A stretch of DNA of 64,000 bases from Eubacteriales bacterium (GTDB taxonomy: Bacteria; Bacillota; Clostridia; Lachnospirales; Lachnospiraceae), in contig JAUNHC010000002.1 in NCBI GenBank assembly GCA_030524175.1, forward strand, positions 155,977 to 219,976, written 5' to 3'. Below, piece after piece: positions 1 through 62,630 of this stretch. Numbering within the stretch: position 1 is the stretch's first letter; each line of letters begins with the position of its first letter. Under the pieces are notes generated by a model that was given only the letters and a program-made list of their open reading frames with translations, was not told the origin of the DNA and did not search any database. The translations under genes and the position numbers were made by a program.

Positions 1-11
1 TACTACCTGAC

Positions 12-78
12 AAAGGCGTCAGAAGCAGACTCCGGAGGAAGCATCATTCCCCGGCACCCCTGCTTTTGACGCCTTTTT
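12..78 (+). terminator. Long hairpin with T-tract upstream of pyrG
   Basis: Bases 12-28 pair with 60-76 over 17 bp (one G-T wobble), and T bases run on to 78. An outer CTGACA/TGTCAG pairing (7-12 with 81-86) could lengthen it past the T-run. It is either the terminator of a gene left of the window or an attenuator in the pyrG leader. pyrG attenuation is known in Gram-positives, but no pyrG promoter is visible in the window, so the choice is open. Confidence 0.6.
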
Positions 79-1756: not shown

Positions 1757-1771
1757 GAAAGGATGAGGAAC

Positions 1772-4700
1772 ATGGCAGAGATGAAAAGAGAACAAAAAGG
1801 ACTTTATTGTCCGGAATTTGAACATGATAACTGCGGTATCGGTGCGGTGGTCAACATCAAAGGAAAGAAGAGCCATGACACAGTGGCAAATGCTCTCAAG
1901 ATTGTAGAGAATCTGGAGCACCGGGCAGGAAAAGATGCTGAGGGAAAAACAGGCGACGGTGTAGGGATCCTTCTGCAGATATCCCACAAATTTTTCAAAA
2001 AAGCCTGTAAGAAGGAAGGAATTGAGCTTGGACAGGAAAGAGAATACGGTATCGGCCAGTTCTTTTTCCCTCAGCATGAGATCAAGCGTGCCCAGGCAAA
2101 AAAGATGTTTGAGATCATCCTGAAAAAAGAAGGGCTTCAGCTTTTAGGCTGGCGTACAGTTCCTGTGTTTCCCCAGGTGCTGGGAAATAAGGCAAAGGAG
2201 TGTATGCCCTGCATCATGCAGGCATTTATCCGCAAGCCGGACGAAATGGAGAAAGGCCTTGATTTCGACAGGATATTATATATTGTACGGAGGGAATTCG
2301 AACAGAGCAATGACAATACTTATGTAGTTTCCATGAGCAGCCGTACCATTGTATATAAAGGAATGTTTCTGGTAGGACAGCTCCGTACCTTTTTTGAGGA
2401 TTTGCAGAGTCCTGATTATGAGTCAGCCATCGCACTGGTGCATTCACGTTTCAGTACCAACACCAATCCAAGCTGGGAACGGGCTCATCCCAACCGATTT
2501 ATGGTACATAACGGAGAAATCAATACCATACGGGGAAATGCAGACAAGATGCTTGCAAGAGAAGAAAACATGGAGTCGCCTTATTTAAAAGGTGAGCTTC
2601 ACAAAGTACTTCCCGTAGTAAACCGCAATGGATCTGACTCCGCAATGCTGGATAATACCCTGGAATTTCTTGTCATGAGCGGTATGGAGCTGCCCTTAGC
2701 TGTAATGATAACCATTCCGGAGCCGTGGGCAAACAATGACACCATTTCCCAGGAAAAGCGTGATTTTTACCAGTATTATGCCACTATGATGGAGCCATGG
2801 GACGGTCCGGCATCCATTCTGTTCTCAGATGGTGATGTGATGGGGGCAGTCCTTGACAGGAACGGACTTCGGCCGTCCCGGTACTATATCACCTCAGACG
2901 GTTATATGATACTTTCCTCAGAAGTGGGCGTCCTTCCTGTTCCGGAGGAGAAAATAATACTAAAGGAACGCCTTCATCCCGGGAAAATGCTTTTGGTGGA
3001 TACGGTGCAGGGAAAGGTGATGGATGACGATGAACTGAAGGAAAGCTATGCGAAAAAGCAGCCATACGGAGAGTGGCTTGACAGCAATCTTCTTCAGCTT
3101 AAAGATATTAAAATCCCAAACAAAAAACCGCAGGAATATGGGGAGGAACAACGTTCCAGACTGCAGAAAGCATTTGGCTACACTTATGAGCAGTACCGTA
3201 CTTCTATCCGGAATATGGCATTAAACGGCAGTGAAAGTATAGGTGCCATGGGGGTGGATACGCCGCTGGCAGTGCTTTCCACACAGCATAGACCGCTGTT
3301 TGACTATTTTAAGCAGCTTTTTGCCCAGGTGACGAACCCGCCTATTGATGCTATCCGTGAAGAAATTGTCACCTGTACCAGTGTGTATGTGGGAAAAGAC
3401 GGAAACCTGCTGGAGCAAAAGCCGGAGAACTGTCAGGTACTTAAGATCAATAATCCCATTCTCACCAATACGGATATGATGAAAATCAAAAATATGAAGC
3501 AGGAAGGCTTCCAGGTAGCAGTTGTTTCTACCTTATATTATAAAAGTACGAAACTGGAGAGGGCAATTGACAGGCTGTTTGTGGAGGTTGACAAGGCATT
3601 TCGCGAGGGCGCCAATATCCTGGTGCTTTCTGACCGGGGTGTGGATGAAAACCATATGCCCATTCCATCGCTGCTGGCGGTATCCGCGGTGCATCAGCAT
3701 CTTGTAAAAACGAAGAAAAGCACTTCGCTGGCTATTATCCTGGAGTCAGGGGAACCCCGGGAGGTCCATCATTTTGCAGCATTGCTGGGATACGGGGCAA
3801 GCGCAGTCAATCCCTATCTTGCCCTGGAGACGATCCGTGAGCTGATTGACAATCATATGCTGGATAAGGACTATTATGCGGCAGTGGATGATTACAACCA
3901 TGCAGTGATCAGCGGTATTGTGAAGATTGCATCCAAAATGGGAATATCAACCATCCAGTCCTATCAGGGTTCCCAGATTTTTGAGGCGATCGGGGTGTCC
4001 CGGGAAGTGATTGAAAAATATTTTACAGGGACAGTGAGCCGGGTGGGAGGTATTACTCTGGAGGATATTGAGGATAATGTGGAGCGTCTCCATTCAGAAG
4101 CCTTTGACCCGCTGGGACTGAGTACAGACTTGACACTGGACAGTGTAGGCGCCCATAAAATGAGAAGCCAGGGGGAAGAACACCGTTATAATCCACAGAC
4201 TATCCATCTTCTCCAGGAATCCACCAGAAGAGGGAGCTATGAGCTTTTTAAAGATTATACAAAAATGGTGGACGAAGAAAACCATGGCAGTCTCAGAGGC
4301 CTGCTTGAGTTTCGCTTTGCAGAAAATCCTGTTCCTCTGGATGAGGTGGAGAGTGTGGAGGAGATTGTGAGGCGGTTCAAAACAGGAGCCATGTCTTACG
4401 GCTCTATTTCCCAGGAAGCACATGAAACACTGGCCATTGCAATGAACCATCTTCATGGGAAATCAAACACAGGCGAAGGCGGTGAGAGTGAGGAGAGACT
4501 TGACTCTCAGGGGACGGAAAATGACCGCTGTTCTGCTATCAAGCAGGTGGCAAGCGGCCGCTTCGGTGTCACCAGCCGGTACCTTGTATCAGCAAAAGAA
4601 ATCCAGATCAAGATGGCTCAGGGGGCCAAGCCCGGTGAGGGCGGACATCTTCCGGGGAAAAAGGTATATCCCTGGGTAGCCAGGACACGTCATTCCACCC

Positions 4701-6319
4701 CGGGGGTAAGCTTGATCTCCCCTCCCCCTCATCATGATATTTATTCCATAGAAGATTTGGCACAGCTTATATATGATTTGAAAAATGCAAATAAATATGC
4801 GGACATTTCTGTGAAGCTTGTGTCTGAAGCCGGTGTGGGAACTGTGGCGGCAGGTGTGGCGAAGGCCGGAGCACAGACAATTCTTATATCCGGTTATGAC
4901 GGGGGAACAGGAGCTGCCCCCAGAAGCTCCATCCACAATGCAGGGCTGCCCTGGGAACTGGGACTGGCAGAAACTCACCAGACACTTCTGATGAACGGCC
5001 TGAGAAACCGTGTGCGGATCGAGACGGACGGCAAGCTCATGAGCGGACGGGATGTGGCTTTTGCGGCACTTTTAGGCGCGGAAGAGTTTGGCTTTGCCAC
5101 GGCTCCTCTTGTGACTATGGGCTGTGTGATGATGAGGGTGTGCAACCTGGATACCTGTCCTGTGGGCGTGGCTACCCAGAATCCGGAGCTTCGTAAGAGA
5201 TTCCGGGGAAAACCGGAATATGTGGAAAATTTTATGCGTTTTATCGCTCAGGAATTAAGGGAATACATGGCAAAGCTGGGTGTACGCACCATTGATGAGA
5301 TGGTGGGCCGTACAGATCTTCTTGTCCCGTCTCCTCATATTGAAGAGCCTCATAAGAGTAAGGTGGATTTAAGTGCTGTTTTGGAAAATCCCTTTGCCGG
5401 AAAGGGACAGAAGGTCACCTTTGACCCGAAATGGGAATACAACTTCCAACTGGAAAAAACCTTGGATGAAAAGGTTCTTTTAAAGAAATGTACAAATGCT
5501 GTGATAAAAGGCGAAAAGCTGGAGCTTTCCCTGGAAGTGACAAACACAGACCGTTCCTTCGGCACCATCCTGGGTTCAGAGATCACAAGGAATCATAAAG
5601 AGGGACTTCCGGAAGACAGCATTATGATTCACTGTAATGGTGCCGGAGGACAGAGCTTCGGGGCGTTTATACCAAAAGGTCTGACTCTGGAGCTTACCGG
5701 TGACAGTAACGATTATTTCGGAAAAGGTCTTTCAGGCGGGAAACTGATCGTGCGTGTTCCCGAGAAGGCAGCCTACAAAGCCGAAGAGAATATCATTGTG
5801 GGAAACGTGGCACTTTACGGAGCCACAAGCGGTATGGCATTTATTAACGGCGTGGCAGGAGAACGCTTTGCTGTCCGCAATTCCGGCGTCTATGTAGTGG
5901 TGGAAGGCGTTGGGGAGCACGGCTGTGAGTATATGACAGGCGGCCGTGTGGTAGTTCTTGGAAAAACAGGGAAAAACTTTGCCGCTGGTATGAGCGGAGG
6001 TGTTGCTTATGTGCTGGACCTTGAAAATGAGTTGTACAAAAACGTAAATAAAGCTATGATTTCCATCGAAAAGGTGGAAAGCAAATACGACAGAAAAGAG
6101 CTTCGGGGCCTTATAGAAGCCCACGTAAAGGCCACAGGCTCCAGGCTGGGGGCAAAGATTGCAGCAGAATTTGACGCTTACCTTCCCCACTTTAAAAAGC
6201 TGATCCCTAATGAGTATAAGCGTATGGTAACTTTAAGCGCAAAGCTTGAGGAAAAAGGCCTGAACAGCCAGGAGGCACAGATGGAAGCCTTCTATGAAAG
6301 CGTTGGTGCAAAACATTAA
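1772..6319 (+). CDS. gltB: Glutamate synthase large subunit
   Basis: The large (alpha) subunit of glutamate synthase takes the amide of glutamine and moves it to 2-oxoglutarate. The product is 1515 residues, typical for GltB. The N-terminal amidotransferase has the conserved Cys of DNCGIGAVV behind a short propeptide, as in the class II family. The central and FMN domains follow. A 3Fe-4S site shows as CVMMRVC then C in NLDTCPVG. The C-terminal Gly-rich beta-helix domain (repeated GxxxG segments such as GGRVVVLG) is complete. ATG 1772 is preferred over ATG 1763 because GGAAAGGATGAGG then lies at a normal distance. gltD follows after 37 bases, and the pair forms the holoenzyme. Confidence 0.97.
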   Translation: MAEMKREQKGLYCPEFEHDNCGIGAVVNIKGKKSHDTVANALKIVENLEHRAGKDAEGKTGDGVGILLQISHKFFKKACKKEGIELGQEREYGIGQFFFPQHEIKRAQAKKMFEIILKKEGLQLLGWRTVPVFPQVLGNKAKECMPCIMQAFIRKPDEMEKGLDFDRILYIVRREFEQSNDNTYVVSMSSRTIVYKGMFLVGQLRTFFEDLQSPDYESAIALVHSRFSTNTNPSWERAHPNRFMVHNGEINTIRGNADKMLAREENMESPYLKGELHKVLPVVNRNGSDSAMLDNTLEFLVMSGMELPLAVMITIPEPWANNDTISQEKRDFYQYYATMMEPWDGPASILFSDGDVMGAVLDRNGLRPSRYYITSDGYMILSSEVGVLPVPEEKIILKERLHPGKMLLVDTVQGKVMDDDELKESYAKKQPYGEWLDSNLLQLKDIKIPNKKPQEYGEEQRSRLQKAFGYTYEQYRTSIRNMALNGSESIGAMGVDTPLAVLSTQHRPLFDYFKQLFAQVTNPPIDAIREEIVTCTSVYVGKDGNLLEQKPENCQVLKINNPILTNTDMMKIKNMKQEGFQVAVVSTLYYKSTKLERAIDRLFVEVDKAFREGANILVLSDRGVDENHMPIPSLLAVSAVHQHLVKTKKSTSLAIILESGEPREVHHFAALLGYGASAVNPYLALETIRELIDNHMLDKDYYAAVDDYNHAVISGIVKIASKMGISTIQSYQGSQIFEAIGVSREVIEKYFTGTVSRVGGITLEDIEDNVERLHSEAFDPLGLSTDLTLDSVGAHKMRSQGEEHRYNPQTIHLLQESTRRGSYELFKDYTKMVDEENHGSLRGLLEFRFAENPVPLDEVESVEEIVRRFKTGAMSYGSISQEAHETLAIAMNHLHGKSNTGEGGESEERLDSQGTENDRCSAIKQVASGRFGVTSRYLVSAKEIQIKMAQGAKPGEGGHLPGKKVYPWVARTRHSTPGVSLISPPPHHDIYSIEDLAQLIYDLKNANKYADISVKLVSEAGVGTVAAGVAKAGAQTILISGYDGGTGAAPRSSIHNAGLPWELGLAETHQTLLMNGLRNRVRIETDGKLMSGRDVAFAALLGAEEFGFATAPLVTMGCVMMRVCNLDTCPVGVATQNPELRKRFRGKPEYVENFMRFIAQELREYMAKLGVRTIDEMVGRTDLLVPSPHIEEPHKSKVDLSAVLENPFAGKGQKVTFDPKWEYNFQLEKTLDEKVLLKKCTNAVIKGEKLELSLEVTNTDRSFGTILGSEITRNHKEGLPEDSIMIHCNGAGGQSFGAFIPKGLTLELTGDSNDYFGKGLSGGKLIVRVPEKAAYKAEENIIVGNVALYGATSGMAFINGVAGERFAVRNSGVYVVVEGVGEHGCEYMTGGRVVVLGKTGKNFAAGMSGGVAYVLDLENELYKNVNKAMISIEKVESKYDRKELRGLIEAHVKATGSRLGAKIAAEFDAYLPHFKKLIPNEYKRMVTLSAKLEEKGLNSQEAQMEAFYESVGAKH

Positions 6320-6356
6320 GAAGATAGGCGCAGTGAATGCGCAACAGGAGGAAATC

Positions 6357-7841
6357 ATGGGAAAACCAACAGGATTTTTAGATTATAAGAGAGAGTCGGC
6401 AAAGGTTCAGCCGGCAAAAGTCCGCATTGCTCATTTCAATGAATTCCGGATTCCGTTAAAGAAGGAGAAACAGAAATTACAGGGAGCGCGCTGCATGGCC
6501 TGTGGCGTACCCTTCTGCCAGTCAGGCATGATGCTTGGAGGTATGGCTTCCGGCTGTCCCCTTCATAATCTGGTTCCGGAGACAAACGATCTGGTGTATA
6601 CGGGAAACTGGAAGCAGGCATATTTAAGGCTGAGTAAGACACACTGTTTTCCGGAGTTTACTTCCAGGGTTTGTCCGGCTCTCTGCGAGGCTGCTTGTAC
6701 CTGCAATCTGGACGGAGAACCTGTAGCAACGAAGGAGAATGAGCGGGCGATCATTGAGACTGCATTTGAGCAGGGCTGGGTACAGCCAAATCCCCCAAAA
6801 GTAAGGACAGGAAAGACAATCGCTGTCATTGGAAGCGGCCCGGCAGGTCTGGCAGCAGCCCAGCAACTGAATCACAGGGGGCATAATGTGACAGTGTTTG
6901 AGAGAAGTGACCGTATTGGCGGGCTGCTGCGCTACGGTATTCCCAATATGAAGCTGGAGAAATCCATTATTGACAGAAGAGTGAAGATCATGGAAGCCGA
7001 AGGCGTAACCTTTGTTACCAATACCAATGTAGGTACAGATATCAAGGCAGAGGAACTTCTGAAAAAGTTTGACAGAGTGGTTCTGGCCTGCGGAGCCTCT
7101 AACCCCAGAGATATCAAGGTGCCGGGAAGAGAGGCGAAGGGAATTTACTTCGCCGTGGATTTTCTGAAACAAGTGACAAAGACTCTTCAGGACTCTGATT
7201 TTGGGAAGGTACCCTACGAGCTGGCAAAGGGTAAGAATGTCCTTGTTATTGGCGGCGGTGATACGGGAAATGACTGTGTGGGAACAGTGATCCGCCTGGG
7301 TGCAAAGTCTGTAACCCAGCTTGAGATGATGCCCAAACCGCCTGCTGAACGGGCAGAGGATAATCCATGGCCCCAGTGGCCAAAGGTTTTGAAAACCGAC
7401 TATGGCCAGGAGGAAGCCATTGCTGTGTTCGGACATGACCCAAGAGTTTACCAGACAACAGTGACTGAATTTATACAAGATAAAAAAGGAAATGTCTGCA
7501 AAGCAAAGACAGTGAAGCTGAAAAGTGAAAAAGACCCTAAAACAGGCAGAGTGCAGATGGTTCCGGTGGAAGGAAGCGAAGAAGTGATTTTGGCTGATTT
7601 AGTCTTGATCGCCGCAGGCTTTCTGGGAAGCGAGAAATATGTAACCGATGCATTTAAAGTAGCTGTCAACGGGCGGACAAATGTAGAGACAAAACAAGAG
7701 GGATATGCAACAACGGTACCAGGAGTGTTTACTGCAGGTGACATGCACAGAGGCCAGTCATTGGTAGTGTGGGCGATCCGTGAGGGCAGGGAGGCTGCAA
7801 AGGCAGTAGACCAATCTCTTATGGGATATTCCAATTTATAG
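6357..7841 (+). CDS. gltD: Glutamate synthase small subunit
   Basis: The beta subunit feeds electrons from NAD(P)H through FAD and iron-sulfur clusters to GltB. The 494-residue product begins with a short region and a Cys-rich 4Fe-4S domain (CMACGVPFC, CPLHN, CPALCEAACTC). An FAD-binding fold follows (IGSGPAGLAAAQQL, about residue 150), then an NAD(P)-binding Rossmann motif (VIGGGDTGNDC) and a C-terminal GVFTAGDM FAD segment. The frame is open back to 6294, but ATG 6357 sits just after CAGGAGG and gives the family N-terminus. It follows gltB in the same operon. A consensus promoter for glnA starts 10 bases after its stop. Confidence 0.96.
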   Translation: MGKPTGFLDYKRESAKVQPAKVRIAHFNEFRIPLKKEKQKLQGARCMACGVPFCQSGMMLGGMASGCPLHNLVPETNDLVYTGNWKQAYLRLSKTHCFPEFTSRVCPALCEAACTCNLDGEPVATKENERAIIETAFEQGWVQPNPPKVRTGKTIAVIGSGPAGLAAAQQLNHRGHNVTVFERSDRIGGLLRYGIPNMKLEKSIIDRRVKIMEAEGVTFVTNTNVGTDIKAEELLKKFDRVVLACGASNPRDIKVPGREAKGIYFAVDFLKQVTKTLQDSDFGKVPYELAKGKNVLVIGGGDTGNDCVGTVIRLGAKSVTQLEMMPKPPAERAEDNPWPQWPKVLKTDYGQEEAIAVFGHDPRVYQTTVTEFIQDKKGNVCKAKTVKLKSEKDPKTGRVQMVPVEGSEEVILADLVLIAAGFLGSEKYVTDAFKVAVNGRTNVETKQEGYATTVPGVFTAGDMHRGQSLVVWAIREGREAAKAVDQSLMGYSNL

Positions 7842-7850
7842 AAAAAGGAG

Positions 7851-7879
7851 TTGACAAAGGGGTACCCTGTTGCTATAAT
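7851..7879 (+). promoter_or_regulatory. Vegetative promoter of glnA
   Basis: The -35 box is TTGACA (7851-7856) and the -10 box TATAAT (7874-7879), with a 17-base spacer, a perfect match to the housekeeping sigma consensus. The expected transcript start is near 7886. This leaves a 190-base leader before glnA. Confidence 0.9.
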
Positions 7880-7887
7880 ACCTGCAT

Positions 7888-7901
7888 GAACAAAGGCGTT
7901 C
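7888..7901 (+). promoter_or_regulatory. Hexaloop hairpin resembling an ANTAR RNA site
   Basis: GAAC (7888-7891) pairs with GTTC (7898-7901), leaving a six-base loop AAAGGC with A at position 1 and G at position 4. That is the loop signature known for ANTAR-protein RNA targets. The 3' half overlaps the 5' arm of the terminator at 7895-7938, so the two cannot form together. Only one such loop is clear, whereas known sites use two, so this is a candidate. An ANTAR protein is encoded just after glnA. Confidence 0.5.
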
Positions 7902-7938
7902 TTTTGAAAGGTAACTCTTCGAAAGTGCGCCATTTTTT
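7895..7938 (+). terminator. Intrinsic terminator in glnA leader
   Basis: Bases 7895-7907 pair with 7919-7931 in a 13-position stem (one T-T mismatch, two G-T wobbles) with an 11-base loop. Six T follow at 7933-7938. It sits about 10-50 bases after the predicted start of the glnA transcript, so glnA expression should require antitermination or read-through. Confidence 0.75.
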
Positions 7939-7961
7939 GTACTTGAAGCACAAAATGACAG

Positions 7962-8040
7962 TCCGTTTTAAGTGATGGATCGAGGAAAACGGAGCGGAAT
8001 TATCCGTCTCACAGCGATAACGGAAGAGCCTGGTACAGGC
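7962..8040 (+). promoter_or_regulatory. Structured second half of glnA leader
   Basis: TCCGTTTT (7962-7969) is an exact complement of AAAACGGA (7986-7993). TCCGT (8003-8007) is complementary to ACGGA both at 7989-7993 and at 8020-8024. The arms can therefore pair 1-2 plus 3-4, or 2-3. A separate hairpin AGCCTG/CAGGCT (8027-8032 with 8036-8041) follows, and the glnA ribosome site AAGGAG is at 8062-8067. The alternatives suggest a second control step, but no known riboswitch class was recognised. Confidence 0.45.
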
Positions 8041-8075
8041 TGTTTGGAATCCGGGAATGATAAGGAGAGATAACA

Positions 8076-9401
8076 ATGGGGAATTATACCAGAGACGAAA
8101 TTTTACAGATGGCGGAGGATGAAGACGTAGAGTTCATCCGGCTGCAGTTTACCGACATGTTTGGTACGCTGAAGAATATTGCCATCACTGCCCGGGAACT
8201 TCCCAGGGCGTTGAATAACGAATACATTGTGGACGGCTCTTTTATAGCCGGGATAGCCGGAGGGGAGATGGAGCCTGATATGTACCTCCATCCGGATCTG
8301 GATACCTTCAATATCCTTCCGTGGCGTCCCCAGCAGGGAAAGGTCGCCAGGCTGCTCTGTGATATTTACCGCCCTGACGGTACACCCTATGAGGGAAGCT
8401 GCCGGCAGCTGCTGAAAAATGTGGTGGAAGAGGCAGCGCAGGAGGGATATACCTGTTATATAGACCCAGAGTGTGAATTTTTCCTGTTCCACACGGACGA
8501 CAACGGTATGCCTACCACAGTCACACATGAGAAAGCAGGATATCTGGATATCAGTCCTTTGGATTTAGGCGAAAATGCAAGGCGGGATATGGTACTTAAT
8601 CTGGAGGATATGGGTATTGAGGTGGAATCCTCTCACCATGAGACAGCCCCGGCTCAGCACGAAATAGATTTTAAGTATGGCGAAGCAAAAAAAATGGCAG
8701 ACTGTATTATGACCTTTAAAATGGCAGTACGTACCATTGCCAAACGTCATGGTCTGCACGCCACCTTTATGCCGAAGCCAAAAGCAGAGGCAAACGGTTC
8801 AGGCATGCACATTCATTTTTCTTTATTTAAAAATGGGAGAAATATATTTGCAAATGCGGAAAATCCGGGAGAGTTAAGCGGGGAGGCATATTACTTTGTG
8901 GGCGGGCTTCTGGCGCACAGTAAGGAAATGGCCCTTATTACAAATCCTTTGGTGAATTCATATAAACGTCTTGTTCCGGGATATGAAGCACCCACGGAAC
9001 TTACATGGACAGTAAACAATCAGAATTCCCTGGTGAGAATACCAAACGCAAGAGGTGCGGAGACAAAAATAGAGTTAAGAAGCCCGGATGCGTCCTCTAA
9101 TCCCTATCTTGTATTTGCTGTGTGTCTTGCAGCAGGGCTTGACGGTATCCGGAGAAAACTGTTTCCCACAAAGTCCTCTGACCGCTCACTCTCCCCGTCG
9201 GATCAGAAGGCTATGAATATTGAGAATCTTCCTGAAAATCTGAAAGAAGCCATTGGATTTTTCGAGGAAAGTACCTGGCTTAAGGATATCCTGGGCAAGG
9301 AATTCTGTGAAGAATACGCAGCAGCTAAAAAGAAAGAATGGCTCCGGTATACAAGACAGGTGACACAGTGGGAGCTGGAGGAATACCTTTATCGTATTTA
9401 G
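8076..9401 (+). CDS. glnA: Glutamine synthetase, type I
   Basis: It condenses glutamate and ammonia to glutamine with ATP in the cytoplasm. At 441 residues it is the short GSI type found in Firmicutes. Visible landmarks are the N-terminal beta-grasp with FTDMFGTLKN, metal and substrate ligands in DPECEFFLF and HHETAPAQHEI, NGSGMHIHFS, and PGYEAPTELTW in the C-terminal catalytic half. The start at 8076 follows AAGGAGAG. The gene has its own consensus promoter and a long structured leader with an early terminator, and an ANTAR-domain gene follows. This suggests control at transcript elongation by nitrogen status. Together with gltBD it forms the GS-GOGAT ammonia assimilation route. Confidence 0.96.
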   Translation: MGNYTRDEILQMAEDEDVEFIRLQFTDMFGTLKNIAITARELPRALNNEYIVDGSFIAGIAGGEMEPDMYLHPDLDTFNILPWRPQQGKVARLLCDIYRPDGTPYEGSCRQLLKNVVEEAAQEGYTCYIDPECEFFLFHTDDNGMPTTVTHEKAGYLDISPLDLGENARRDMVLNLEDMGIEVESSHHETAPAQHEIDFKYGEAKKMADCIMTFKMAVRTIAKRHGLHATFMPKPKAEANGSGMHIHFSLFKNGRNIFANAENPGELSGEAYYFVGGLLAHSKEMALITNPLVNSYKRLVPGYEAPTELTWTVNNQNSLVRIPNARGAETKIELRSPDASSNPYLVFAVCLAAGLDGIRRKLFPTKSSDRSLSPSDQKAMNIENLPENLKEAIGFFEESTWLKDILGKEFCEEYAAAKKKEWLRYTRQVTQWELEEYLYRI

Positions 9402-9409
9402 TGTACTGA

Positions 9410-9449
9410 CAGTTACTATGCCCGGCCAATAGGACCGTAATAGTAACTG
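9410..9449 (+). other. Intergenic hairpin between glnA and ANTAR gene
   Basis: CAGTTACTAT (9410-9419) is a perfect inverted repeat of ATAGTAACTG (9440-9449), and an inner CGGCC/GG-CCG pairing is possible. No T-run follows, so it is not an ordinary terminator. It may be an RNA processing or stability element that sets the glnA/regulator ratio. Confidence 0.5.
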
Positions 9450-9491: not shown

Positions 9492-10046
9492 ATGAGCAGC
9501 AGTATTGTGATCGCATTGCCCAAAATTGAAGATGCAAAGAAAATCCGTACTATCTTAAGCAGGCATGGAATTTCGGTGGCTTCAATCTGCAGCTCAGCCG
9601 CACAGGCGTTGTCAAGCATATCAGAGCTTGACTGCGGTATCCTGATCTGCGGGTATCGTCTGCCGGATATGCCGTACAGGGATTTGGCAGAATGTCTGCC
9701 GAAATATTTTGAGCTTCTTCTTCTTGCTTCAGCCAGAGTGATCAATGAGGCACCGCCCTCTGTACTTACGGTGGAGATGCCGGTTAAGGTCAGTGATCTT
9801 ATAAACACAGTGAACATGATGCTCAGTCAGCAGGAGAGGCTGAGACGAAAAGAGAAAAATAAGCCTAAGCAGAGGTCATGGAAAGAGCAGAATTATATTT
9901 CCAATGCAAAGATGCTTCTCATGCAGAGAAATCACTTAAGCGAGGATGATGCTTACCGTTATATCCAGAAATGCAGTATGGATTCCGGCACCAATATGGC
10001 GGAGACGGCACAGATGGTGCTGAGGCTTATGTACGATGAAGTATGA
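9492..10046 (+). CDS. ANTAR-domain RNA-binding antiterminator, degenerate receiver
   Basis: A 184-residue protein. Residues 1-115 look like a receiver fold and residues 125-184 like an ANTAR domain (AKMLLMQRNHLSEDDAYRYI, then MDSGTNMAETAQ). ANTAR proteins bind paired hexaloop hairpins in nascent mRNA and stop terminators from forming. In the receiver part the usual phospho-acceptor Asp before YRLPDM appears to be Gly (ICGYRLPDM), so classical phosphorylation is unlikely. No histidine kinase lies beside it. It sits 90 bases after glnA, and a candidate hexaloop occurs in the glnA leader, so glnA is the likely target. The start at 9492 follows AAGAGGAG. The family call is firm; target and signal are inferred. 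Confidence 0.88.
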   Translation: MSSSIVIALPKIEDAKKIRTILSRHGISVASICSSAAQALSSISELDCGILICGYRLPDMPYRDLAECLPKYFELLLLASARVINEAPPSVLTVEMPVKVSDLINTVNMMLSQQERLRRKEKNKPKQRSWKEQNYISNAKMLLMQRNHLSEDDAYRYIQKCSMDSGTNMAETAQMVLRLMYDEV

Positions 10047-10106
10047 GACTGTTACAGTAATTTAATAATTGTTTGGGATTACAACGGTGTAATCAAAATA
10101 TCCAAT

Positions 10107-10148
10107 CCTGGCATACCTGGGCTTTTTCGGGTATGCCGGGATTTTTTT
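10107..10148 (+). terminator. Terminator after the ANTAR gene
   Basis: CCTGGCATACC (10107-10117) pairs with GGTATGCCGGG (10130-10140) with one wobble, followed by seven T after an A. It closes the glnA-regulator unit, 19 bases before aspS. Confidence 0.85.
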
Positions 10149-48151: not shown

Positions 48152-48179
48152 AATTATCAGTTAAAGCATATGAAAAATG

Positions 48180-48467
48180 CTGTGATGAGGAATAGTACAT
48201 AAGGACTGAAGCACAGAGAGCTGCTGGGTGGTGAGAAGCAGCGGTAAGAAATTGTGGAACTCGCCTCGGAGCATCTGCCCCAAATCTTTTACGGAAGAGA
48301 GTAGGCGCAGACGGCGTCCACCGTTACCTGGAGAGGATATAAGGATGTCTTTGATGTTCCGTATCCCGTGAGTGTATGAATCCGTTCATAAATGAGAGTG
48401 GTACCGCGTAGGACAGTAATAGTCTTTCGTCTCTTGCAAGTAATTGCAGAGTCGGGAGATTTTTTTG
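48180..48467 (+). ncRNA. T-box riboswitch (leucine) with terminator
   Basis: A tRNA-sensing leader. Stem I has the AGAGAGCTGCTGGGTGGTG distal segment (48215-48233). A likely specifier codon CTC (Leu) is at 48260-48262, inside GTGGAACTCGCC. The T-box GAGAGTGGTACCGCG lies near 48397. A terminator made of the TTGCAA/TTGCA and TCTC/GGGAGA pairings ends in a T-run at 48461-48467. Uncharged tRNA-Leu should favour the antiterminator and turn on leuA. Confidence 0.93.
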
Positions 48468-48521: not shown

Positions 48522-50177
48522 ATGATGAATGCAAGCAAGTACAAGAGACAGTATTACATGCCCCCTGCAAAATGTATGAAATGGGCTGAGAAAGAGTATG
48601 TGGACAAAGCTCCCATATGGTGTTCCGTAGACCTTCGTGACGGTAATCAGGCACTTGTGATCCCTATGAGCCTGGAACAGAAAATTGAATTTTTTAAGCT
48701 GTTGGTAGAAATCGGATTCAAAGAAATAGAGGTTGGTTTTCCGGCAGCATCAGAGACAGAGTATACCTTCTTACGTACCCTGATCGAGCAGAAGCTTATC
48801 CCTGAGGATGTGACCATACAGGTGCTCACCCAGTCAAGAGAGCATATCATCCGTAAGACCTTTGAGGCTGTAAAGGGTGCGCCGAAAGCTATTATACATG
48901 TTTACAATTCCACCTCAGTGGCTCAGCGGGAGCAGGTGTTTAAGAAATCTAAAGAGGAGATTCTCCAGATCGCTGTGGATGGAGCTTCTCTTTTAAAAGA
49001 ACTGGCAGATGAGACGGACGGGAATTTCCAGTTTGAATACAGTCCTGAGAGTTTTACCGGTACAGAACCGGAGTATGCTTTGGAAGTATGCAATGCAGTG
49101 CTGGATGTTTGGAAACCCACACCGGATAATAAATGTATCATCAACCTTCCTGTGACAGTGCAGCTTTCCATGCCTCACGTTTATGCAAGCCAGATTGAGT
49201 ATATGTGTGAGAATATGAAGTACCGTGAGAATGTAATTGTATCTCTTCATCCTCATAATGACAGGGGATGCGGTGTGGCGGATTCTGAGATGGGACTGCT
49301 GGCCGGTGCAGACAGAATTGAGGGTACCTTGTTTGGAAACGGAGAGCGTACAGGAAATGTGGATATTGTCACATTGGGAATGAATATGTATTCTCAGGGA
49401 GTGGATCCGAAGCTTGATTTTACAGATATGCCTCATATCTGCGAGGTGTATGAGGAATGTACGGGAATGAATGTGGATGCGAGAAGTCCGTACAGTGGCG
49501 CCCTTGTGTTTGCTGCATTTTCCGGTTCACATCAGGATGCTATTGCAAAGGGAATGCACTGGAGAGACGAGAAGGATCCCAGCCGCTGGACAGTGCCTTA
49601 TCTGCCTATCGACCCTACAGATGTGGGCAGAAATTACGACGCAGATGTTATCCGTATCAACAGTCAGTCCGGCAAGGGCGGCGTAGGATATATCCTGGAG
49701 ACAAAATACGGTCTCAACCTTCCTGCAAGAATGCGGGAAGCAATGGGGTATGCAGCCAAAGCTGTTTCCGACCACAAGCACAAAGAGCTGCTTCCGGATG
49801 AGATTTTTGATATCTTTAAGAAGACCTTTGAAAATGTTACAGAGCCTTACAGCATCAATGAGGTACATTTCCAGCAGACGAACGAAGGAATTACTGCCCA
49901 GGTGACCTCCACATACAAGGGTGTGACAGTAACGACTGAGGCGGCAGGAAACGGACGTCTGAATGCTGTCAGCAAGGCCTTGAAGAAAGCTTATGGCCTT
50001 AAATTTGATCTTGTTACCTATCAGGAACATGCATTAGAACAGAGTTCCAGTTCCAAGGCTATCGCCTACGTGGGCATCCGTAAGCCTGACGGCGGCCTGG
50101 CATGGGGCGCAGGGGTTGATCCTGATATTATCCGCGCAAGTATTGATGCACTGGTGACTGCCATCAATAACAGATAG
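48522..50177 (+). CDS. leuA: 2-isopropylmalate synthase (LeuA type 2)
   Basis: A 551-residue enzyme that condenses 2-oxoisovalerate with acetyl-CoA, the first committed step to leucine. The HMG-like TIM barrel has SVDLRDGNQAL near the start, SLHPHNDRGCGVADSE and GNGERTGNVD. The C-terminal leucine-sensing domain covers about residues 430-550. The N-terminal YMPPAKCMKWAEKEYVDKAPIW marks the long, fungal-like LeuA2 class. ATG 48522 (or 48525) follows GGAGG. The T-box leader gives tRNA-Leu control on top of feedback inhibition. Confidence 0.96.
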   Translation: MMNASKYKRQYYMPPAKCMKWAEKEYVDKAPIWCSVDLRDGNQALVIPMSLEQKIEFFKLLVEIGFKEIEVGFPAASETEYTFLRTLIEQKLIPEDVTIQVLTQSREHIIRKTFEAVKGAPKAIIHVYNSTSVAQREQVFKKSKEEILQIAVDGASLLKELADETDGNFQFEYSPESFTGTEPEYALEVCNAVLDVWKPTPDNKCIINLPVTVQLSMPHVYASQIEYMCENMKYRENVIVSLHPHNDRGCGVADSEMGLLAGADRIEGTLFGNGERTGNVDIVTLGMNMYSQGVDPKLDFTDMPHICEVYEECTGMNVDARSPYSGALVFAAFSGSHQDAIAKGMHWRDEKDPSRWTVPYLPIDPTDVGRNYDADVIRINSQSGKGGVGYILETKYGLNLPARMREAMGYAAKAVSDHKHKELLPDEIFDIFKKTFENVTEPYSINEVHFQQTNEGITAQVTSTYKGVTVTTEAAGNGRLNAVSKALKKAYGLKFDLVTYQEHALEQSSSSKAIAYVGIRKPDGGLAWGAGVDPDIIRASIDALVTAINNR

Positions 50178-62492: not shown

Positions 62493-62577
62493 TATTCGAT
62501 AATAGTAAACCTGTCGAAAGGCAGTGACACAAAGCTATAGGGTCTAACGTTGAGAGACTATGACAGCCAGTTGCCGT
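62493..62577 (+). ncRNA. c-di-GMP-I (GEMM-I) riboswitch
   Basis: The core matches the class: AAACCTGTCGAAAGGCAG with the GAAA tetraloop, then GACACAAAGC, GGGTCTAA, and the GACAGCCAGTTGCCG end. Usual GGC/GCC helix bases are replaced here by AGT/GCT on both strands (A-U, G-C, U-G), a compensating change. GACACAAAGC differs by one base from the common GACGCAAAGC. TTGCCG (62571-62576) can pair with CGGCAA (62637-62642) in the terminator arm, linking ligand binding to termination. Confidence 0.92.
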
Positions 62578-62630
62578 ATTATTTATTATGCAGGAATAAG
62601 TGTTTTATCTTGCTCTTGTTTTTGTACATA

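Follow-up and report, generated by a model that had tools for sequence, protein, structure and literature searches.

A probable single-hexaloop ANTAR attenuator in the glnA leader of a Lachnospiraceae genome and a candidate glutamine regulon

In a 64 000 nt stretch of a Lachnospiraceae genome (Eubacteriales bacterium, GCA_030524175.1; contig JAUNHC010000002.1, positions 155 977–219 976 of the forward strand; hereafter the window) we found that the leader of the glutamine synthetase gene glnA carries one small hexaloop hairpin with the marks of an ANTAR target, the 3′ half of which doubles as the 5′ arm of an intrinsic terminator. We consider it likely that this single-hexaloop attenuator controls glnA and the adjoining ANTAR gene by antitermination; the same ANTAR protein probably also acts on pyrG–gltBD, purF and glnN. 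The case is built from properties of the sequences, namely conservation, covariation, mutual exclusion of the two structures, the presence of a single loop, the themes of the downstream genes and co-occurrence with ANTAR genes. Control of glnA by antitermination had been suggested in an earlier note on this DNA, and the comparative sequence evidence, which is of this one kind, speaks for it.

The promoter of glnA is of the sigma-A type and lies on the + strand at 7851–7879, with TTGACA at 7851–7856, a 17 nt spacer, TATAAT at 7874–7879 and a TG before the − 10 element. Previously described as perfect, it indeed matches the consensus at 12 of 12 positions, and is the only one to do so among 22 promoter-like sites in the 15 kb scanned; the same layout is also present in the loci of relatives. 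The transcript start deduced from the − 10 element, as opposed to a mapped one, falls at about 7886, which would place the start of the hairpin at approximately nt +3. This hairpin (7888–7901, +) reads GAAC-AAAGGC-GTTC, with arms at 7888–7891 and 7898–7901 and a loop at 7892–7897 that has A at position 1 and G at position 4 (A1 and G4), the loop marks described in the earlier note. An intrinsic terminator stem-loop with one U·U mismatch, recognized by folding and covariation, occupies 7895–7931 (+), and is followed in the sequence by a T6 tract at 7933–7938 (+). The proposal that the 3′ half of the hairpin forms the 5′ arm of this terminator also held, with nt 7895–7901 common to both; as each structure needs these nucleotides, the two are mutually exclusive. 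Pfam matches upheld both of the genes named beforehand: glnA, encoding a type I glutamine synthetase of 441 aa (8076–9401, +), and after it a gene for an ANTAR protein of 184 aa (9492–10046, +). Between them, a strong hairpin with no T-run (CAGTTACTAT...ATAGTAACTG, 9410–9449) was observed; a 59 nt stretch containing it folds at − 20 kcal mol− 1 (z − 3.8), and it may determine how much of each protein is made relative to the other.

Folding of 7886–7940 gave − 18.7 kcal mol− 1 against a shuffle mean of − 9.12 (z − 4.24, one of 200 shuffles as good), whilst the energy of a piece holding only the hairpin (7886–7912) was unremarkable at − 2.8 kcal mol− 1 (63 of 200 shuffles as good). Folding energy thus backs the terminator and not the hairpin, such that the argument for the latter rests on conservation and covariation. 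A simple terminator scan did not list the glnA-leader terminator. At the gathering score, no Rfam family covers the hexaloop sites in the window or at six other loci, and the reading of these sites as riboswitches known to Rfam was rejected for want of a family match. Elsewhere in the window, a T-box leader (48173–48437) and a c-di-GMP-I riboswitch (62494–62578) were matched above the gathering score.

The ANTAR protein was matched in 59 of 64 genomes of the genus, from which 40 loci were taken; two of these (L097 and L100) end before the leader, leaving 38 with enough upstream sequence. The succession of TTGACA, TATAAT, hairpin and terminator was present in 35 of the 38 and absent from L093, L098 and L101, the last being a distant pair with GlnA 39 % and ANTAR 27 % identical. 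In named collections, the locus has close relatives in Blautia and other Lachnospiraceae. An alignment of leaders from related glnA–ANTAR loci had been put forward by the earlier note as a check, and in it both the A1/G4 loop and the terminator that overlaps it are kept; the absence of conservation in relatives, which the note had named as grounds for refutation, was thus not seen. Across 32 rows (the window and 31 others, near-identical rows omitted), the loop reads AARGGC/T or AAGGAC, and towards its tip the terminator is free to vary in both length and sequence. The terminator stem was paired in 96.1 % of cells, with a covariation score of 0.455 (0.213 in shuffles) and 50 cells changed on both sides (11.7 in shuffles). 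For the hairpin, 100 % of cells were paired with just two compensated. Two of the related loci (L094 and L095) have variant hairpin stems, GGAC/GTTC and AGAC/GTCT, and residue 155 of their ANTAR proteins is His.

More variation in the hairpin stem was available outside these leaders. Model R2, built from 51 sites, models the terminator and not the hairpin; applied to 66 of the 69 loci L252–L320 it returned 75 matches, or 72 after removal of three identical to training rows. Among these 72, which still include a small number of shadows on the opposite strand and of near relatives of the training rows and were found by a model that rewards consensus letters as opposed to covariation, the four hairpin pairs were standard in 96.2 % of cases. 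The figure was 79.0 % in shuffles, 5000 of which never reached the observed value, and 35–51 % when the same pairs were slid. The loop had A1 in 72 of 72, A2 in 72 of 72 and G4 in 71 of 72. This is a fairer test than the counts from a set of 123 sites used below, as the descriptor that chose them demanded both pairing and an A1/G4-like loop, and pairing and loop counts are therefore partly built in. The hairpin pairing test was weak on the genus leaders plus 80 loci found with model R1 (97.9 % vs 97.2 %, a value reached by 125 of 2000 shuffles), because the stem shows little variation in these loci; in alignment A4, with rows chosen for pairing, hairpin covariation was 0.395 vs 0.202. Most sites close the loop as AC-loop-GT, thus with A–U and C–G pairs, and a minority have a GC closing.

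The glnA site on which the earlier note had centred stands, but a second attenuator, before pyrG–gltB–gltD, and a hairpin before gatCAB had been overlooked in the same window. The order of genes is pyrG, gltB, gltD, glnA, the ANTAR gene, a class II tRNA synthetase (D/K/N type), gatC, a gatA-type amidase and gatB, where names follow Pfam matches except for gltD and the amidase subunit, which were named by position. At 7–22 (+), the descriptor scan and model R2 found the hairpin CTGAC-AAAGGC-GTCAG, the loop of which (12–17) is identical to that of glnA; folded alone it reached − 6.4 kcal mol− 1, with four of 200 shuffles as good. Here, too, the 3′ half of the hairpin doubles as the 5′ arm of a terminator, a long one at 13–75 (+) that shares 13–22 with the hairpin and has a T-run at 74–78. 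The promoter, TTGACA-17-TATAGT, lies approximately 50–22 bases before the window, as seen in L246. The genes that follow are pyrG (CTP synthase, 80–1756, +; Pfam) and gltB (glutamate synthase large subunit, 1763–6319, +; Pfam), both encoding glutamine users, and a gltD-like oxidoreductase subunit (6294–7841, +). The longest open frame of pyrG begins with TTG inside the leader region, and its start is likely the ATG at 149.

A third hairpin with A1 and G4, GATTAC-AACGGT-GTAATC (10077–10094, +), is situated between the ANTAR gene and the tRNA synthetase–gatCAB genes, and its stem covaries in relatives. The terminator scan placed a terminator 3′ of it, at 10104–10143 (+), and as the two do not overlap, exclusion of the terminator was not found at this site in the window. 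This terminator begins approximately 9–14 nt downstream in the window and in several relatives, and overlaps the hairpin in L155 and L156. By our own reading, a hexaloop hairpin occurs in this gap in 11 of 80 loci, with the stems TGATCAC, GATTAC, GGTCAC, GGTTAC, GGCTGC or TGATTAC and the loop AANGGC or AAAGAC. The stretch directly after the third hairpin (10095–10116, TATCCAATCCTGGCATAC) is kept in relatives beyond the needs of a terminator and might fold as CC-AATCCT-GG, giving a hexaloop that has A1 and, at position 4, C.

Searched with model R2, the genome yielded the glnA and pyrG sites plus one upstream of purF, 3.9 kb before the window. A further site, that of glnN (a type III glutamine synthetase, Pfam GSIII_N), is divergent from and adjoining purF, just outside the window; scoring was confined to 150 of 811 candidates, so this search did not list it, and the site count is thus a lower bound. 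Weak R1 matches in the same genome (L104–L106) were rejected as having no hexaloop, as was a match in the window to ACAAGGGTGT at 49915, which has no surrounding hairpin and looks coding. In two loci, tandem model matches were seen in one leader region: L278 (1303–1349 and 1425–1473, minus strand) and L316 (1726–1775 and 1801–1865).

In order to describe the genes downstream of the sites, 99 model-match loci were examined, of which 78 fit the descriptor, 75 of them with a downstream open frame. The remaining 21 fell outside the hairpin-plus-terminator descriptor; L262 has too short an upstream region, and others resemble plain terminators. Downstream genes were assigned via blastp clusters to a Pfam-scanned representative, and glutamine synthetases, glutamine amidotransferases or P-II accounted for 55 of the 75 site/ORF pairs, in a sample that consists of model matches as opposed to random loci and counts some sites under two handles. 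These comprised 23 glutamine synthetases of type I or III, 13 class II amidotransferases (asnB, purF and glmS types), six pyrG, five of the gltB type, four carA, three P-II and one class I amidotransferase read as guaA. The remainder include PPDK_N proteins (four), family 3 solute-binding proteins (three), aminotransferases (three), alanine/sodium symporters (two) and an NAD synthetase (one), as well as some genes with no evident nitrogen link, e.g. peptidyl-tRNA hydrolase. Elsewhere in the class, other families have sites before genes for glutamine synthetase, a class II amidotransferase, SAICAR synthetase and an ammonium transporter.

In these sites, a stem of at least 3 bp carries a hexaloop with A1 and G4; the closing pairs are mostly A–U and C–G, and at glnA the hairpin overlaps a terminator. 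All of these features mark ANTAR targets. As two hexaloops separated by a short linker were not found, we kept the sites out of the two-hexaloop ANTAR-target class. The earlier note had raised the possibility of a one-loop variant, in keeping with which a second A1/G4 hexaloop near the first was no more frequent in glnA leaders than expected by chance (7 of 36, compared with 28 % of shuffles). That these are nevertheless ordinary two-hexaloop sites, the second loop of which has been overlooked, seems improbable. All characterized ANTAR attenuators described in the relevant passages of PMC3369931 and PMC8934654 have two loops, some second A1/G4 hexaloop precedes the T-run in 25 of the 123 sites (20 %, slightly above the 10.7 % of shuffles), and the conserved CC-AATCCT-GG of the third site could be a second hexaloop that lacks G4. 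Against this, and in addition to the counts from the glnA leaders, the extra loops of the 123-site set have no sequence or position in common, terminator stems by themselves raise hairpin frequency above that of shuffles, and the apical part of the terminator is freely variable. Furthermore, there is no upstream space for one in most sites: a sigma-A promoter (at least 9 of 12 matches) was present in 114 of the 123 compared with nine of 121 control windows, and in 102 of these 114 the hairpin arm starts at nt 1–10 of the transcript, as judged from the − 10 element. The pyrG leader of the window is an exception in that its hairpin lies 28 nt after the − 10 element; a scan of it gave no second A1/G4 hexaloop.

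Read as DNA, GAAC-N6-GTTC is a perfect dyad at approximately +3, and one might ask if the inverted repeat is an operator for a repressor near the transcription start, with the terminator incidental. We regard this as very unlikely. In 33 of the 123 sites the 4 bp arm contains a G–U pair, which breaks the symmetry of DNA whilst keeping the pairing of RNA; moreover, 16 arm pairs occur whilst the asymmetric loop stays nearly constant, and in the aligned sites this loop overlaps the terminator arm. Attenuation of glnA by a leader peptide (ATG at 7886, M-N-K-G-V-L) can be set aside, for although 42 of the 123 sites have an ATG where transcription is inferred to begin, three of 35 glnA leaders and most other sites lack one, and the frames, where present, stop at varied positions or run on beyond 21 codons.

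The putative regulator, the 184 aa protein, has a C-terminal ANTAR domain (PF03861, E-value 1 × 10− 15) preceded by a basic stretch, and is the sole ANTAR match in the genome sequence searched. A structural model (pLDDT 89.3, pTM 0.65) predicts a receiver-like fold for the N-terminus, and the best match in the PDB was the EutV–RNA complex (6ww6, TM 0.73), with AmiR and Rv1626 also matched. Asp was found in none of 17 aligned proteins at column 54, which we assigned ourselves to the end of predicted strand 3, Gly or Ser standing there instead; the receiver-like domain is probably not phosphorylated. Met163 (EutV Met172) is invariant in the 17 proteins, and Tyr155, the counterpart of EutV Tyr164, which stacks on loop G4 in EutV, is kept in 14, with His or Phe in three. 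In our alignment, the RNA-contacting R142, K143 and K147 of EutV correspond to Q133, N134 and N138.

The sites and ANTAR genes tend to occur together. Within the family (150 genera, one genome each), sites were found in 87 of 131 genomes with an ANTAR gene and one of 19 without (Fisher P = 3 × 10− 7), and within the class (291 genomes) in 46 of 145 and four of 146, respectively (Fisher P = 5 × 10− 12); these tests ignore phylogeny. At the cut-offs used, an ANTAR gene without a site was seen in 44 of the 131 family and 99 of the 145 class genomes. In the genus, model R1 had matches in 38 of 64 genomes, all of which, by our own reading, belong to the group of 43 that have a close ANTAR orthologue, and model R2 found sites in 52 of 64, one of these (G040) having no detected ANTAR gene. 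Both G040 and G258 have hexaloop sites with no ANTAR gene detected, for which loss, an assembly gap or another reader may account. ANTAR was likewise undetected in four of 50 site-bearing genomes of the class (G309, G481, G505 and G536) and one of 88 in the family, where completeness of 81–99 % suggests that assembly gaps may be responsible. Such genomes are what favours a hairpin read by some other RNA-binding protein or by a small ligand, e.g. glutamine; this is a slim prospect given that the hairpin has the A1/G4 marks and the closing pairs of an ANTAR target, that sites and ANTAR genes co-occur strongly, that glnA and the ANTAR gene adjoin in the relatives examined, and that a hairpin of 14 nt is small for an aptamer.

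Antitermination by the ANTAR protein would then operate as follows. Transcription would start at approximately 7886, and with the protein inactive the nascent RNA would fold the terminator and transcription would stop before glnA. Once active, we infer, the ANTAR protein would bind and hold the hexaloop hairpin, block the terminator and so allow glnA and its own gene to be transcribed; a nitrogen or glutamine signal would presumably reach it through the receiver-like domain. One hexaloop could suffice: placed at the extreme 5′ end of the RNA, with no recruitment hairpin upstream, it would act as the antiterminator and so take the part that the second (antitermination) hairpin plays in the eut system. 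In this genome the same protein would probably control pyrG–gltBD, purF and glnN, which together with glnA would make a glutamine regulon. We also think it likely that Clostridia possess a broad glutamine regulon governed by single-hexaloop ANTAR attenuators at mRNA 5′ ends, the transcript start taking the place of the recruitment hairpin. A bolder extension would be that the receiver-like domain may sense glutamine via glutamine synthetase itself.

If this is true, the many naturally occurring attenuators of this kind would demonstrate that a single loop can be enough and would provide substrates with which to learn why, putting directly to the test the claim that two loops are needed. For the abundant Lachnospiraceae of the gut, they would also offer an element to search with and a candidate regulator of how glutamine is made and used. 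ANTAR control of glnA is already an idea in the literature, since a covariance search in which two hairpins were required placed ANTAR targets upstream of nitrogen genes, including those for glutamate/glutamine synthesis (PMC3369931, as its text reports), and the antiterminator protein NitR has been linked to glnA control in Clostridium acetobutylicum (PMC4676874, in a citing passage). As far as a search of open-access texts reaches, the single-loop form appears to be new, and so does a glutamine regulon based on it. The targets from the covariance search resemble ours in their nitrogen/glutamine theme and terminator overlap, and differ in the two hairpins required. NitR resembles our case as an antiterminator protein tied to a clostridial glnA; there, however, an antisense RNA is also cited, and the citing passage names no RNA element and no hexaloop. 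The Sac/Bgl RAT antiterminators, as summarized in PMC3369931, likewise use a single protein-stabilized hairpin that excludes a terminator, but belong to another protein family with an RNA site of 29–30 nt. AmiR of Pseudomonas aeruginosa (1qo0) is an ANTAR protein with an unphosphorylated receiver-like domain, controlled by the partner protein AmiC, according to the account in PMC8934654. In form, EutV of Enterococcus faecalis and the eutP leader are a close likeness, and with them our system shares the A1/G4 hexaloop, the A–U and C–G closing pairs, the terminator overlap (PMC3369931, PMC8934654) and a response-regulator-like ANTAR protein of the same fold. In the passages of these papers that deal with the requirement, EutV needs two loops in vitro and in vivo (PMC3369931, PMC8934654) as well as the A–U and C–G closing pairs (PMC3369931); the EutV–RNA structure has its contacts on one loop, yet both must be contacted to prevent termination, and single-loop sites are foreseen only where the time limit set by a moving polymerase is lifted (PMC8934654). 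Thus, whereas the eutP leader has two hexaloops with a short linker and the receiver domain of EutV is phosphorylated by EutW, the leaders described here have one hexaloop at the 5′ end and a protein with Gly or Ser in place of Asp at the corresponding column.
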